Positions 10,238-34,604 of a stretch of 34,604 nucleotides of DNA are shown here, in pieces. Origin of the DNA: a bacterium. GTDB lineage: Bacteria; Sumerlaeota; Sumerlaeia; MVZB01. The stretch spans positions 11,537-46,140 of the forward strand of contig JAMCWS010000139.1 in NCBI GenBank assembly GCA_023480605.1. Reading direction: 5' to 3'. The notes below the pieces were generated by a model. The model saw only the letters and a list, made by a program, of their open reading frames with translations, had not been told where the DNA came from and ran no database searches. Within the stretch, counting starts at the first letter, position 1. Each line of letters starts with the position of its first letter. The position numbers and the translations under genes were made by a program.

Positions 10238-12095
10238 TCAACGCATCGTCAACTTGGTGTAGGTCACCGGGATGTCGCTTTCCCGGGTCTCGATTGCCGC
10301 CAGCGTTCCCGAATGGATGAGGACGTTGTTGACCAGGCCCATCAATTGCTGCTGCGCCGATGGGGTCTGGTTGTTCAAAAACATGGGCAGATACGTGCCG
10401 AGTAGGCTGACGATCTGACTGATATCGACAGCGCTGTAGGAGTAAAGGGCGGGGTTGTTGCCGGCCAACCGGGCGAGTTCCAGGTAGGCGGGCGAGGCGC
10501 CGATCGAAGGGCTTTGCCCCCCGGCGCGGCTCACCGCGGCGGCCACGCTGGCGGTGTTCAGGCCGATCAGCACGTAGTCCTTCAGGATCGTGTAACTGGG
10601 CGCGAAGCCCTGCGAGAAGGGAAGCGTGCGAATCTGCGCGCCGCCGGCCTGGACGCTCTGGAAGGTCAACGCCGCCTGCGGGTCGGGTCCACCCGCGGCC
10701 GCACCGTCAGCGACGCCCATCGCGCCCGCCTGCGGGCCGGCCGCGCTCCGGACCTTCTGCTCCATGTATTTTTCCAGTTTGATCATGATCGCGGCCATTT
10801 TGGCCGGATCCTTCAGCTTCACGCCGATCGAAAGGTCGACCGTGGGGAAGGGTAGAAAGCCGATGGTGGACGTGTTGGTCATGTCCACCTTGTTGAAACC
10901 GAAGGTGAATTCGCCCCCCAACGCCGGAATCAGTTCCTGCTGGACCGAAACGCCGGTGGCCTGTTCAAAACGAAGGATTGGGTCTCCGGCGGACGAACCG
11001 GGGCCGCCCATCACACCGGGCATGGCCTTGAGCATGGTCAGTTCGCTGTTGATCATGCCGGGGTCGAACAACCCGTAGACCACCGCCGCCAGCGGATTCT
11101 GGGCGACGAAGGCAAGACCCTCGAGCTTGCCGGGCTTGATGTCGGGCGAACGTTTGGCCGGATCGGCCGTTGTGGCCGCCTTGACGAACAGGCCGTCGGG
11201 AACGACGTTGATCGCCCAGGCGATTTTATTGCTCGCCGCGACCCCCGGCATAGCCTTGAGCATGCCGCCGTATGGGGTGTAACGCACCAGGTAGTCGGCG
11301 TCGAACCAGCCGACGAGGTCGGCCTTCCGCGTCGGCAGACTGTTGGTCAAGCGGACATAATCGGCGTTTTTCGTGATCGGCACGGCGCCGGAAGCCAGCC
11401 CCGTGAGTGCGCGGTTCAGCGCCGCCTGGCGGTTGCTGAAGAGCAACCGGTCGCCCGCCAGCGTGTAGAAGCCCTCCTGCCCGGCGCCGCTTTCGTCGCG
11501 ATAAATATAATGAGAAACCGACACGCCGCCCACGGTCAGCTTTTCGAACGTCGAGGGTTTGGCCGGCGCCACCGGCAGAGATCCGGTGGTCGGCGCCACG
11601 GCGCTCGCCGTCACGGCGCTCGCCGCCGCATAGTCCTTGTTCTTCTGGTCGAGCACTTCGATCAGTTTGGCGGCCTTGGCCCTGTCGCCCGCCGTCATCA
11701 GGAACACGACCGACGGCACTTTTTCCCCGGCTGCGGCCGGCGTGGCGTAAAAGAGCGCGTTCTTGAACACGCCGCTCATGAATTCTCCGACCGTCGCCGG
11801 ATACCCGAGGGTGGCCTCCAGTTTCCTGCGCTCCAGGTCAAAGGCCTGGTATTCCAGATCCTGGGCGACGGCGGGGCTCTGGAGGTATTGCGTCAGCGAA
11901 TTGACCAGGGGCAGCGTCCGTGACTTGTTCCACAGGCCGGCCGTGTCCGAAGCGCCCAGCACCATCACCGCATCCGCCGGAATCTGGTCGGCGAAGGGCA
12001 ATTCCGCCCGCGCGGGGGGGGATCGCCGCCGCGCCTAGAGCGATCGCCAGAAGCAGTAACCATCCCGTCCGGTTGCTTGTCGGGTGAATCATCAT
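10238..12095 (-). CDS. DUF3352-like secreted protein, apparently frameshifted at a C8 run near 12015-12022 (downstream ORF alone = 10238-12001)
   Basis: Main frame 10238-12001 starts only at a TTG with no signal peptide. A signal peptide (MMIHPTSNRTGWLLLLAIALGAAAIPP) with RBS (AAAGGA) lies just upstream in another frame; deleting one C gives ...AAIPPARA|ELPFADQIPADAVMVLG. Confidence 0.75.
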
Positions 12096-27821: not shown

Positions 27822-29237
27822 ATGACGTGGGACGAGCCGTTTAAATTAATGATTGTGGATGATGAGAGCGAGCGCCTGGCCCAGCACCTCGCCGAAGCGC
27901 TCGAGCCGGCAGGCTTCAAAACGACCATCGTCCGCGATGTCGCCGCCGCCCAGCAGGTGCTCGCGCGCGAGCCTGTCGACTTCCTCGTGCTCAGCTTCAA
28001 CGGCCAGGGCGCCCTCAATCTTCAACCCCTCCAATCGTGGCTCAGTTCCCTGACGCAGACGCGCACGGTGGCCCTGCTGAGCGAGTCGCTCGAAAGTTAT
28101 GAGGACCTGCTCCACCAGGCCGGGGTGGGCCTGATCATTCCGCGCCGACTGAATCCGCGCCAGATCGCCCAAACCCTCATCAACCAGGGCGAGTTGCGCA
28201 ACCTCGAGGAACAGAACCATCGTCTCCGCCAGATGGTCGATACCCGCACCGCCTACGAAAACCTTCTGGGCGGCTCGGCCCCGATGCGGGCCATGTATCG
28301 GCTCCTCGACCAGATCGCCCGCACCGACGCCCCCGTCCTCATCACCGGCGAGGACGGCACCGAACGAGTCGACGTGGCCCGCGCCATCCATCAGAAAAGC
28401 GAGCGGGCGCAACAGCCCCTCGTCGCCATCGACTGCCGCAAGATGGCCGAGGACCGGACCGGCGCGGCCGTTTTCGGCCCGCTGGGCAACGGTTCTTATT
28501 CCACGGGTCCCAGCCTCCGCCATTCGGCTTTCGCCCGCGCCGGCAAGGGCGCCATCGTGCTGCACAACATCGAGACGATGCCGCCCGAGGTTCAGCGCCG
28601 CCTGGTGGATTTCTTCCACCGGCCTTTCTTCCAGAACGAAACCCCCGGTTCGCCCCAGCCGCTGGCCCGCATCATGGCCACCGCCGGCCCCAACCTGCTC
28701 GGCAAGGTCGAGGCCGGCGAATTCCAGCGCGAACTGTTTTATCGGCTCAACATCCTCCAGGTGCGCGTTCCCCCGCTGCGCGAACGGCGCGAAGACATCC
28801 CCATGCTGGCCCAGCATTTTCTGCGGGCCGCGGCCCGTCGCCTGGGCGTGCGCGCCACCGTCGGCGGCCTGACCTTTTCCAGCAAGGTGCTGCTGCGCCT
28901 GTTCCAATACGACTGGCCCGAAAATCTCGAAGAACTCGAACGCACGGTCGCCGAAATGGCCACCCACGCCCAGGACGGCCAGCTCGAAGTCGAAAACCTG
29001 CCCCCCGCTCTCCAGCAACTCGACGAGAGCGCCAACGGCGAATCGATCAAACTCAACGGCAAAAGCACCATCCCTTTGAAGGAAGCCAAACGCCTGTTCG
29101 AGACCGAATACTTCACCGGCCTTTTACGGCGCACCCATGGCAATATGGCCATGGCCTCGCGCTACAGCCACGTCGGCCGCCCTTATCTCTATAAGAAAAT
29201 CCGCGAATACGGCATCGAACCCGAGGAATTCCGCTGA
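27822..29237 (+). CDS. NtrC-family response-regulator-like protein with degenerate receiver and AAA+ domains and intact Fis-type HTH
   Basis: VDDE receiver start; degenerate Walker A GEDGTERV, degenerate Walker B GAIVLHNI; conserved LFYRLNILQVRVPPLRERREDIPMLAQHFL; C-terminal GNMAMASRYSHVGRPYLYKKIREYGI. Confidence 0.9.
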   Translation: MTWDEPFKLMIVDDESERLAQHLAEALEPAGFKTTIVRDVAAAQQVLAREPVDFLVLSFNGQGALNLQPLQSWLSSLTQTRTVALLSESLESYEDLLHQAGVGLIIPRRLNPRQIAQTLINQGELRNLEEQNHRLRQMVDTRTAYENLLGGSAPMRAMYRLLDQIARTDAPVLITGEDGTERVDVARAIHQKSERAQQPLVAIDCRKMAEDRTGAAVFGPLGNGSYSTGPSLRHSAFARAGKGAIVLHNIETMPPEVQRRLVDFFHRPFFQNETPGSPQPLARIMATAGPNLLGKVEAGEFQRELFYRLNILQVRVPPLRERREDIPMLAQHFLRAAARRLGVRATVGGLTFSSKVLLRLFQYDWPENLEELERTVAEMATHAQDGQLEVENLPPALQQLDESANGESIKLNGKSTIPLKEAKRLFETEYFTGLLRRTHGNMAMASRYSHVGRPYLYKKIREYGIEPEEFR

Positions 29238-29451: not shown

Positions 29452-31239
29452 TCACTCCTGGATACGCCAGACGTCACCCGGGCTGACCGTTCCATTGGTC
29501 GGGTCATAGGTGTGTTCGGCCAGGAATGGCGAGGGGGGCGGAATGTTAACCGGATCATATGCCTGGGCGATATTGTCTCGCGTCAGGTCATACTTGCCGT
29601 CGGGCCCGGCGCTCCAGAGGATCCATCCCTGGTTGCCGTCGTCGGGGGCGTAATAGTAATAAGGAGCCGGCGGCTGGCCCTGAGGCGCGAAAACTTCAGG
29701 CATCACGCGCGAGAGGTAAGCGATCGGCGTGGTGAGTTGGTGCACGGTTTTCGGATAAACATTGGTGTCGATTTTGTAGGCTTCGAGGGCCGTTTGCATC
29801 GTCCGTAAATCGGCCCTGACCCGCGATACTTTCGCGCGGGTCTGCGCCTCGAGGAAGTTGGGCACGGTGATGGCCGCCATGATCGCCACCGGGGCCGCCA
29901 GCGCCGCCCCCAGGATGCGGGCGCCGCTCTCCGCCGAGCGATTGACGATCAGGATGCCGTCGGGCTGGTTGATGCGCACCGAAATCTCGCCGGTTGTTTT
30001 CCCTTCCGCATTCAGCAACCGAGATAGCACCCGCTGGCGGGCCGCGTTGGCGGGCGGGCCTCCGCCGGCGGTCTGCGCGGCGGCCTGAGCGTTGTTGATA
30101 ACCGCCTGCATCACCTGCTGGATCATCGTCTTGAGCCGCGCGCTGACGAACAGCATCCCGTTGCCCTCGGTCGGCAGGCCGGCCCTCAGCATCTGGAACT
30201 CCTCGGCGTTGGTCAACCTCTCGCCCTCGGGGATGGGCGCGGTCAATTTCTGGAGCAGTTCGCCGTGGGTCGCCAGGTAGCAGTAAGCGCCGTCGGTGGC
30301 CACAAGCGGATTCATCGGCCACACGGGGTTGGGCGGCACGGTGACGGGCACCTTGCGCAGGTTCCCCTCGGTGCTTTCCGGACCGGCCGCGCCAGGCTGG
30401 GCCAACAGCGCGATCAGGGATTTATAGAGCGTATCATCCTTGACGCGGATCATGATTACGATCCGCGGCGCGGGCAGGCTGAGCGGCGCGCCCGCGATGG
30501 GCAGGACCATCTGCGCCGCAGGATCCTGATCGGCGACGACGATGAATTCACCGCCCAGTGAGGCGATGATCTGCGGTATGTTGACGTTCATCCGCGTGTC
30601 GATTTCCGTCAACCGCTCATCGAGTTGCCCCAGGGCCTGCTGACCGCCCAGGTCGCGCACGACTTCGCGCAAAAGGTTCCAGGCCGCCGGCGCGTCGAAA
30701 TCGCTGGCCGCCAGCAGCATGGCGTCCTTGGGAATGCGGTCCTGAAATGCGAAGGGGTGCGGCTGGCCGCCGGCCAGCGCCAGCAGGCCGCGCGGCCCCT
30801 CCGGCGTTCCGATGAAAATCTTGCCCCGCTGCAAGCCCTGGTCGCTGACCACGCTCATGCCGAGGTCGGAGATGCCGTAAAGGCCCAGCCGCTCGATCAC
30901 GAGGCTGGCCGCGGCGTAAGCCTGGCTGGCCTTCGGCGGCGCGCCCGGCGCCTGCGCCAGCGGCGCCAGTTCGTCCATCAGGCCACGCAGCAGGTCCTTG
31001 ACGTCGGCATACAGATAAAACGACCCGCCTGGATCGAGTTTGGCCTGGACATCGTAAAAGCGTTCGTTGGGTCCGCGCGCCTCGGCGACGGGGCTGGGTG
31101 TGGCGACCGCGGTCGCCGCCGGCGTCGCTCCAACCGGCCCCGGTCCGGCCGCCTCCTCCCGGCCCGGCTTCTGGCACGCGATGGCCATGCACAACGCCGT
31201 AAACACCCATAAACGCCCGGCATGAAAAAGGTTTGTCAT
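29452..31239 (-). CDS. Lipoprotein: DUF3352-like region fused to C-terminal pseudopilin-like domain
   Basis: Lipobox-like CMAIAC; mid region with 'IIASLGGEF'; C-terminal 'AAPVAIMAAITVPNFLEAQTRAKVSRVRADLRTMQTALEAYKIDTNVYP...TYDPTNGTVSPGDVWRIQE'. Confidence 0.85.
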   Translation of the reverse strand: MTNLFHAGRLWVFTALCMAIACQKPGREEAAGPGPVGATPAATAVATPSPVAEARGPNERFYDVQAKLDPGGSFYLYADVKDLLRGLMDELAPLAQAPGAPPKASQAYAAASLVIERLGLYGISDLGMSVVSDQGLQRGKIFIGTPEGPRGLLALAGGQPHPFAFQDRIPKDAMLLAASDFDAPAAWNLLREVVRDLGGQQALGQLDERLTEIDTRMNVNIPQIIASLGGEFIVVADQDPAAQMVLPIAGAPLSLPAPRIVIMIRVKDDTLYKSLIALLAQPGAAGPESTEGNLRKVPVTVPPNPVWPMNPLVATDGAYCYLATHGELLQKLTAPIPEGERLTNAEEFQMLRAGLPTEGNGMLFVSARLKTMIQQVMQAVINNAQAAAQTAGGGPPANAARQRVLSRLLNAEGKTTGEISVRINQPDGILIVNRSAESGARILGAALAAPVAIMAAITVPNFLEAQTRAKVSRVRADLRTMQTALEAYKIDTNVYPKTVHQLTTPIAYLSRVMPEVFAPQGQPPAPYYYYAPDDGNQGWILWSAGPDGKYDLTRDNIAQAYDPVNIPPPSPFLAEHTYDPTNGTVSPGDVWRIQE

Positions 31240-31656: not shown

Positions 31657-33585
31657 TTATGGTTTCAGCAGGGGGTCGAGCGACTTGAAGATCTCATCCT
31701 GCACGCGAGGCAGGTAGAGGTTGCCCAGGTGGCCGCCTTCCTTGAAGCGCAACAGGCGGGGTCCAAGTACTTTGCCCAGCCAGTCGATGTCAATGGCGCG
31801 CAAGAGAAAGTCGTTTTCGTTGATCGAGACGCGCAGTTTGGGATTGGCCGTCAGGTCGGCGCCGATCGACCATAGGTTGGTCTTGGTCAGCATTTCTTCG
31901 CGGTTCACCGGCTGGTTCGTATATTTGAGGTAATAGGGTATCACGAAATCGTTCACGTACCGGATGTAAGAAAACTTCATGATCTCGTTGTAAACCGGGT
32001 CGCGTCGCATCGAGCGCGGTTTGTGCTGTAAAACTCCCATGTTCAGCCGCCGCTGGCTGCTGTAAATGATGTCGCGCAGGATCAGGCGGTAATTCAGGCC
32101 GATCAGATACCTGGACTCGATCTCGCTGAAAGGCAGCGCCGCGCTGGGGGTCAGGTCGTTCGAGGGGACGCTTTCGCTCTGGCTGATCCGGACGGCCTTC
32201 ATAAGCGTGTCCATCGTGCGCTGCGTGCGCACGGCGGGATTCCACTCCATGGGCGCATTATAATAGGCGTCGATCTGCTTGAGGGCGTAAATCAGATCCA
32301 CGGGCGGATTGACCGCGATGTAATGGTCGAAGTGCAGGTCGCGCTGGCGCCCGGTCACCTCAAAGCTGGAAATGAACAGCGTATGCAGGCCCCCCAGCGA
32401 AAAACCCACCAGGGCCGTCTTCGTGAATCGCTCGCGGTAGCGCTCTATCAGGTCGTTATACACCGCGTTGAGCGCCACGTAGGCATCCCAGGCGTCGATG
32501 GGTGCGTAGCCGGGCACCGCCACCGACCCCGCTGTCTCCATGAACTCCCAGTTCATCGCGCTGCTGATCGTCACCACCGACATGCCCCGCTGGTAAATCA
32601 TTTCGGCCAGGGCCATGGTCGACTCCGACATGCGATGGCTGGCCACGCCGGGCAGCAGGAAGACCAGCGGCGCCGGCTTGTCCTGAATCCAAAGGGAATA
32701 GGGCATTTTGCGTCCCGTCGTCGGCACCTTGGCTTCGTATTCGGCCGCTCGATCGGGGAACTCGGGGTCTTTGACGTTGAGAAAGAGCACTCCGAGGGTC
32801 TGCGAGGGATGGATGTCTTCGGCCGTCTGGAGTTCGAAATCCATCACGTCGGCCTGGCGCTCCAACGCCCACAGTTCGCGCACCCAGAAATACGGATCCT
32901 TCTCCACCACCCGCATCTGCTCGTAGGCCGGCAGCACGAAACTGAACTTGTTAAGGCTGAAGAGGACGCCTCCGGCATACGTGGTCCCGTCAGTCGCCAG
33001 ATTGAACGGCAGGGCCAACGTGTCGCGCCCGCTGTCGGGCCCCAGGATGGGCAGCGTCAGAAAGAAACCCGGTCCCGATCCCCAGGCGCCGAAGGCCTGT
33101 CCCCAGTCTTCCTCATAAGGATTCATCCCCATGCGGCTGGCGGGATCGAAAAAGCCCAGCAATCCGACGGTGGTGTTTATCATGAAGCGACCCGTCTCGA
33201 CCGCCGCCCCTTTCCACCTGGCTTGCAGCAGGTTGCCGAAAAGACGCTTGGGCCAGCCCAGGTTGAGGCCCGCCTTGCGGACGCTCTTGCGGACCGGCAG
33301 GTTGGTGATCGCCCGCCAACCCTTGGCCGCCGGATTGGCGATCCCTTGGATGAAGACGTCGTTGAACGCGTATATCGAGCGATTGAACGGCTCGATGGGG
33401 TCGTTGATGACGGCGGGAAACGGCACTTCCTCCGCGGGGGAGACGGGATCCAGCGTTTCGGCGGCGGCGAACATCGGATTGGCGACCGGCGCGACGGGAG
33501 GGGTCGCGCTCTGGGCGCCAAGTGTCGGCGCGCCTACCGTCAGTATTGCCGTCGCCAGCACGAACATCACGAATTGCTTCAACAT
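31657..33585 (-). CDS. MlaA/VacJ domain fused to alpha/beta hydrolase domain
   Basis: N-terminal 'NDPIEPFNRSIYAFNDVFIQGIANPAAKGWRAI...GRFMINTTVGLLGFFDPASRMGM...EDWGQAFGAWGSGPGFFLTLPILGPDSGRD' = MlaA; C-terminal 'PLVFLLPGVASHRMS...TALVGFSLGGLHTLFI' = hydrolase nucleophile elbow. Confidence 0.88.
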   Translation of the reverse strand: MLKQFVMFVLATAILTVGAPTLGAQSATPPVAPVANPMFAAAETLDPVSPAEEVPFPAVINDPIEPFNRSIYAFNDVFIQGIANPAAKGWRAITNLPVRKSVRKAGLNLGWPKRLFGNLLQARWKGAAVETGRFMINTTVGLLGFFDPASRMGMNPYEEDWGQAFGAWGSGPGFFLTLPILGPDSGRDTLALPFNLATDGTTYAGGVLFSLNKFSFVLPAYEQMRVVEKDPYFWVRELWALERQADVMDFELQTAEDIHPSQTLGVLFLNVKDPEFPDRAAEYEAKVPTTGRKMPYSLWIQDKPAPLVFLLPGVASHRMSESTMALAEMIYQRGMSVVTISSAMNWEFMETAGSVAVPGYAPIDAWDAYVALNAVYNDLIERYRERFTKTALVGFSLGGLHTLFISSFEVTGRQRDLHFDHYIAVNPPVDLIYALKQIDAYYNAPMEWNPAVRTQRTMDTLMKAVRISQSESVPSNDLTPSAALPFSEIESRYLIGLNYRLILRDIIYSSQRRLNMGVLQHKPRSMRRDPVYNEIMKFSYIRYVNDFVIPYYLKYTNQPVNREEMLTKTNLWSIGADLTANPKLRVSINENDFLLRAIDIDWLGKVLGPRLLRFKEGGHLGNLYLPRVQDEIFKSLDPLLKP

Positions 33586-33644: not shown

Positions 33645-34604
33645 TCACGCCCGGTTCCCGATCAACGCCTCGATCCGGTCCCAGATCCAGGCGGCCACCT
33701 GCCGCTTGGCGGCGCGGGGCGACTCGACCGGCTCCCCGGCGGCCGCCACCAGCAACACCCGGTTCTCACCGGCTTCAAAGCCGATGCCGGCCTCGCCGAT
33801 GGGATTGGCGCAAATCAGGTCTAACCTCTTTTCGGCTAGTTTACGCTGGGCGACGGCCAGCAGGTCGACACTCTCGGCGGCGAAACCCACCAGCACCTGA
33901 CCGGAGCGGCGATGGGCGCCCGCCCAGCCGGCGATGTCGGGCGTGCGTCGCAACTTGAGCGTCAGATCATCGCCCCCCTTTATTTTCGTATCGGCCGGCG
34001 CCGCGCTTTCATAATTGGCCACCGCGGCGGCAAAAATCGCGAGGTCCACTTCGTCCCACCGGCTCTGCACGGCCGCCAGCATCTCCCGGGCGCTTTCGGC
34101 CGCGATTGGCTCGACCCCTTCGGGCAGCGGCACCGTGAGCGGGCCATGCACGAAAAGCACGCGCCCTCCCCTCGCCAGCGCCTCGGCGGCCAGTTCGGCG
34201 CCCATCCGGCCGGTGGAACGGTTGCTGATGAAGCGGATCGGATCGAGCGCCTCGCGCGTCGGTCCGGCCGTCACCAGCACCGTCTTGCCGTGCAGCGCGC
34301 CGTTCGCGCCGCACCCCGCCAGCGCTTCGGCCAGCGCGCCCACGATCGCCTCGGGGGCCGCCATCCTCCCCTCGCCCACCTCGCCGCAGGCCAGGCGCCC
34401 GGCCTCGGGCTCGAAGACGCGCACGCCCCGCGCCCGCAACTCGGCCATGTTGCGCTGCGTGGCCGGGTGGCGCCACATGGCGGTATTCATCGCCGGCGCG
34501 ATCCACATCGGCCCTTCCCAGGCCAGCAGCAGCGTCGTGGCGGCGTCGTCGGCCAGACCGTGGGCCATCTTGGCCAGCAGGTTGGCCGTGGCCGGGGCGA
34601 CGAC
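33645..34604 (-). CDS. coaBC: CoaBC: phosphopantothenoylcysteine decarboxylase/phosphopantothenate-cysteine ligase (5' end outside window)
   Basis: Open to window edge: 'VVAPATANLLAKMAHGLADDAATTLLLAW...PAMNTAMWRHPATQRN...VLVTAGPTREALDPIRFISNRSTGRMGAELA'. Confidence 0.93.
   Translation of the reverse strand, partial: VVAPATANLLAKMAHGLADDAATTLLLAWEGPMWIAPAMNTAMWRHPATQRNMAELRARGVRVFEPEAGRLACGEVGEGRMAAPEAIVGALAEALAGCGANGALHGKTVLVTAGPTREALDPIRFISNRSTGRMGAELAAEALARGGRVLFVHGPLTVPLPEGVEPIAAESAREMLAAVQSRWDEVDLAIFAAAVANYESAAPADTKIKGGDDLTLKLRRTPDIAGWAGAHRRSGQVLVGFAAESVDLLAVAQRKLAEKRLDLICANPIGEAGIGFEAGENRVLLVAAAGEPVESPRAAKRQVAAWIWDRIEALIGNRA

Follow-up and report, generated by a model that had tools for sequence, protein, structure and literature searches.

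A single-chain MlaA-hydrolase protein from Sumerlaeota with a predicted MlaZ/MlaY-like function

A gene in the window (the whole 34,604-nt stretch of DNA that was analysed) encoded an MlaA domain followed by an alpha/beta hydrolase domain in one polypeptide. Homology, structural modelling and analogy suggested that the product is an exported one-chain protein working like the MlaZ/MlaY pathway of Pseudomonas aeruginosa, with a predicted hydrolase; we place the probability of this reading at roughly 75%. According to PMC11131202, PMC11977310 and PMC12569750, which cite Guest et al. 2023, P. aeruginosa MlaZ (PA3239) is proposed to remove outer-leaflet phospholipid and transfer it to MlaY (PA3238), a described phospholipase with the catalytic triad Ser187, Asp388 and His415, which degrades it. 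Like the fusion, that pathway pairs an MlaA-family protein with a homologous exported alpha/beta hydrolase bearing an equivalent Ser-Asp-His triad, and the proposed logic (extract, then degrade) is the same. However, MlaZ and MlaY are two proteins encoded in the order Y then Z, whereas the fusion is one chain with MlaA first. A preliminary description of this DNA had suggested that the fusion couples extraction to hydrolysis, an idea already published for the two-protein MlaZ/MlaY system. It was the best-supported reading here, given the homology to MlaY and the conserved triad, for an activity that is predicted. The positions of the gene and its parts are listed in Table 1.

Table 1. Features of the MlaA-hydrolase fusion gene (window positions)
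Feature	Position	Strand	Details
MlaA-hydrolase fusion gene	31657..33585	minus	one ORF, 642 aa (P0001); ATG at 33585, stop ending 31657
Probable signal peptide region	33508..33585	minus	residues 1-26, assigned by eye; lipobox cysteine absent
MlaA domain, PF04333	32851..33405	minus	residues 61-245; Pfam E = 5e-47
Linker, lower model confidence	32746..32850	minus	residues 246-280
MlaY-like alpha/beta hydrolase domain	31660..32745	minus	residues about 281-642
Ser396 codon, predicted nucleophile (GFSLG)	32398..32400	minus	aligns with MlaY Ser187
Asp592 codon, predicted triad acid	31810..31812	minus	aligns with MlaY Asp388
His619 codon, predicted triad histidine (GGHLGN)	31729..31731	minus	aligns with MlaY His415

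The single reading frame was conserved over its whole length in two further genomes from the same family (47-50% identity), ruling out a chance ORF or frame artefact, and the recurrence of the fused architecture in several phyla added to the case. A suitably spaced GAGGA Shine-Dalgarno-like motif lay a few bases 5' of the ATG. The alternative start, an in-frame GTG at 33648 that would add a charged leader, was less likely.

The N-terminal half matched PF04333 with 160.5 bits against a cut-off of 25, covering profile positions 2-194 of 195, and also matched solved MlaA chains by sequence. In the AlphaFold2 model (29-row alignment; pLDDT 87.9, pTM 0.87) this part superposed on solved MlaA 5nur_B with a TM of 0.81 and an rmsd of 2.7 (Foldseek), consistent with the ring-shaped MlaA fold. 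The fusion thus shares its PF04333 domain and fold with canonical MlaA (VacJ) of the MlaA-MlaC-MlaFEDB system. Unlike canonical MlaA, it has an added hydrolase and no lipobox, and MlaC was found neither in its genome nor in three relatives.

The C-terminal half was 28% identical to P. aeruginosa MlaY over 354 aa (blastp, E = 2e-33) and is, on this alignment, a diverged MlaY homologue. The preliminary description had noticed both domains in one continuous ORF, which these matches bore out. The substrate could differ from that of MlaY, since the identity is only 28%. A Pfam domain search returned PF04333 for the N-terminal half; no hydrolase family exceeded its cut-off in the C-terminal half (Abhydrolase_6, E = 0.029). 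Pfam and NCBIfam named neither this hydrolase domain nor, at cut-off, P. aeruginosa MlaY itself, showing that the fusion architecture is invisible to those libraries.

The published triad numbers agreed exactly with the MlaY sequence used for the alignment. The GFSLGG elbow reported earlier with no strand given was located at residues 394-399 of the minus-strand product. All 20 aligned sequences, from several phyla, had the triad serine. Of those extending to the other two sites, all 19 had the acid (Glu in the Fusobacterium protein) and all 18 the histidine. In the confident AlphaFold2 model, the serine was placed between strand 387-395 and helix 397-411, the aspartate after strand 584-589 and the histidine after strand 611-614. 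These are the canonical alpha/beta hydrolase positions, so that a Ser-His-Asp triad, whose absence from a model would have counted against an enzyme, is predicted in the expected topology. The hydrolase might instead be catalytically inactive and serve only as a structural lid or partner; this is highly improbable, as the triad was conserved in every sequence spanning it, across several phyla.

For the non-MlaA part of the model, the Foldseek matches were to alpha/beta hydrolases, among them 6i8w, a membrane phospholipase A. The likeness to this PlaF-type enzyme was a weak one at the level of the fold only, and 6i8w has no MlaA domain. Since acetyltransferases (2vat) stood beside esterases among the best matches, and the GxSxG fold does not separate the two, the domain could be an acyltransferase or thioesterase-like transferase (for example one that moves an acyl chain onto a different lipid of the envelope) rather than a phospholipase. 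We consider this quite unlikely, because, among relatives whose function has been reported, MlaY is the closest, and it is described as a phospholipase.

In the MlaZ/MlaY-like reading, the MlaA ring would occupy the inner leaflet of the outer membrane, giving mislocalised glycerophospholipid of the outer leaflet a way down. The periplasmic hydrolase tethered to it (Ser396-Asp592-His619) would then deacylate the lipid locally rather than hand it on to MlaC. Four elements of this reading are inferred: export, location in the outer membrane, a phospholipid substrate and the direct passage of lipid from the pore to the active site. On the 'Rosetta stone' logic of gene fusions, the single chain supports the proposal of 2023 that a periplasmic lipase receives lipid directly from an MlaA-type extractor, and it offers an object for structural study of the lipid hand-off.

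PldA (OMPLA) is an outer-membrane beta-barrel enzyme that destroys outer-leaflet phospholipid. The preliminary description had compared the fusion with it; the comparison held for the purpose, which the proposed role of the fusion shares, but was mechanistically loose, as PldA is a barrel of unrelated fold, and MlaY was the right comparison. PldA (PF02253) was not detected in any of 39 Sumerlaeia genomes, the class of the source genome.

Four of these 39 genomes carried the fusion: the source genome (G000) and G001, G002 and G013. The periplasmic carrier MlaC (PF05494) was found in none of the four, although the genomes searched were mostly incomplete MAGs (G000 72% and G001 95% complete), which weakens claims of absence; the same search found MlaC in six other genomes of the class. 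Accordingly, MlaC was present in six of seven Sumerlaeia genomes with plain MlaA and in 0/4 with the fusion. The sole plain-MlaA exception (G033, locus L012) was 66% complete and had a diverged plain MlaA, with neither MlaC nor MlaD found. Outside Sumerlaeia, MlaC was found in 7/7 sampled plain-MlaA genomes and in 1/15 genomes with a fusion or split pair. The one positive genome, G042, had an additional plain MlaA immediately preceding MlaC, and its fusion lay on another contig. Overall, MlaC was detected in 13 of 14 plain-MlaA genomes and in 0 of 18 in which the fusion or same-order pair was the sole MlaA; the pooled p of 4e-8 for this contrast, like the one-sided Fisher p of 0.015 within Sumerlaeia, ignores relatedness and MAG incompleteness and comes from genome samples that are not phylogenetically independent.

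These counts bear on a further explanation, in which the MlaA half keeps up retrograde transport by passing lipid to an MlaD bridge of the MCE type, and the hydrolase has a housekeeping role or attacks some other ester of the envelope. Inner-membrane homologues were present in fusion-bearing genomes (MlaE in the source genome and MlaD in its three relatives), as expected from the wide distribution of MlaEFD (PMC10665443), and leave some room for lipid transport through an MCE system. In Veillonella, MlaEFD can function where MlaA and MlaC are absent (PMC10665443). However, MlaEFD of this kind is proposed to bridge to the outer membrane unaided, leaving no need of MlaA. Moreover, MlaC went undetected wherever the fusion or pair was the sole MlaA, and the hydrolase gene lay beside or inside an MlaA-family gene in all cases examined. 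We therefore regard an MlaD bridge as unlikely.

A broader proposal, to which we give somewhat less than even odds, is that a single MlaA-lipase chain, assembled independently of MlaZ/MlaY, replaces MlaC-dependent retrograde transport for the clearance of outer-leaflet phospholipid in Sumerlaeota, Planctomycetota, Verrucomicrobiota, Lentisphaerota and Gastranaerophilales. The data suggest two functional kinds of MlaA protein, MlaC-coupled and hydrolase-coupled, and the fusion takes predicted lipase-coupled MlaA into phyla in which the Mla system has hardly been studied. P. aeruginosa differs in that canonical MlaA and MlaC are present besides MlaZ/MlaY.

The phylogenetic distribution of the architecture, which the preliminary description had named as a check, extended well beyond Sumerlaeota. 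A contig scan recovered 14 fused loci (one being that of G013) and two split pairs in the same gene order. The fused or same-order paired loci came from Planctomycetota, Verrucomicrobiota, Lentisphaerota, Gastranaerophilales and unclassified bins. In both split pairs (L044 and L051) the N-termini of the hydrolases resembled separate signal or membrane segments, which makes these pairs resemble an unfused version with the gene order kept. Two Gastranaerophilales (Melainabacteria) MAGs carried the fusion (L105:3797-5989 and L066:3872-5536), with MAG contamination possible; they contrast with the reported total absence of MlaA from diderm Terrabacteria (PMC10665443). No report of the fused form was found in the open literature searched, in which Guest et al. 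2023 was covered through citing papers only. Within the literature available, the one-chain form with reversed order and its exclusion of MlaC appear to be new.

In Pseudomonas and Skermanella, the relatives were two adjacent genes, annotated on plasmid records as a hydrolase and a VacJ protein (tblastn); these plasmid genes were equated with PA3238 and PA3239 because their products agreed and the published triad numbering fitted exactly. Close to mlaYZ on P. aeruginosa pHOU1-1 (L015:8975-10144) lay genes for a patatin-like phospholipase and a lipid A acyltransferase. Fusobacterium vincentii had an unannotated mlaY-mlaZ-like gene pair (L016:3761-5798) in which the predicted triad acid was Glu, not Asp.

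The hydrolase tree had two sides, one made up of the split Y-Z proteins (100/100) and the other of all Z-Y proteins, fused or split. In the MlaA tree, which was built on a short alignment with long branches and small sampling, three MlaZ proteins lay inside a proteobacterial group of plain MlaA (100/96) that excluded all fused MlaA domains. By this tree test, the MlaA half of the fusion is tentatively not an orthologue of MlaZ. As the MlaA half groups apart from MlaZ, MlaA and hydrolase may have been brought together independently, on two occasions. A simple fusion of a Pseudomonas-type mlaYZ operon was disfavoured by the opposite gene order and by both trees.

The preliminary description had noted that a lipobox was missing, unlike in classic MlaA lipoproteins. 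This stood for the Sumerlaeota fusions: P0001 and its two close relatives contained no cysteine anywhere in the protein, precluding a lipobox in P0001, and the fourth had none in its N-terminal signal region. It did not extend to most other fusions, as lipobox-like motifs occurred in the majority of those from Planctomycetota, Verrucomicrobiota and Lentisphaerota, which are probably lipoproteins judging by these motifs. P. aeruginosa MlaZ also had no cysteine near its N-terminus, showing that a lipobox does not define the whole MlaA family, whereas MlaY, unlike the Sumerlaeota fusion, had a lipobox-like cysteine. Loss of the anchor in the Sumerlaeota fusions is plausible, since the MlaA ring itself would sit in the membrane.

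The neighbours of the fusion gene gave no functional clue, and no shared neighbours were seen by eye around the genes of its relatives; no mla operon lay within the window. The upstream neighbour, also on the minus strand, was coaBC, and the downstream neighbour was a DUF3352/pseudopilin-like gene. Another minus-strand gene of the window (10241-12001) matched DUF3352. The minus-strand gene at 29455-31239 resembled it by eye and, unusually, combined this with a T2SSG (pseudopilin) match at the C-terminus. The plus-strand gene at 27822-29234 encoded a sigma-54 activator whose N-terminal region matched no Pfam receiver domain, yet whole-length response-regulator models aligned with it.
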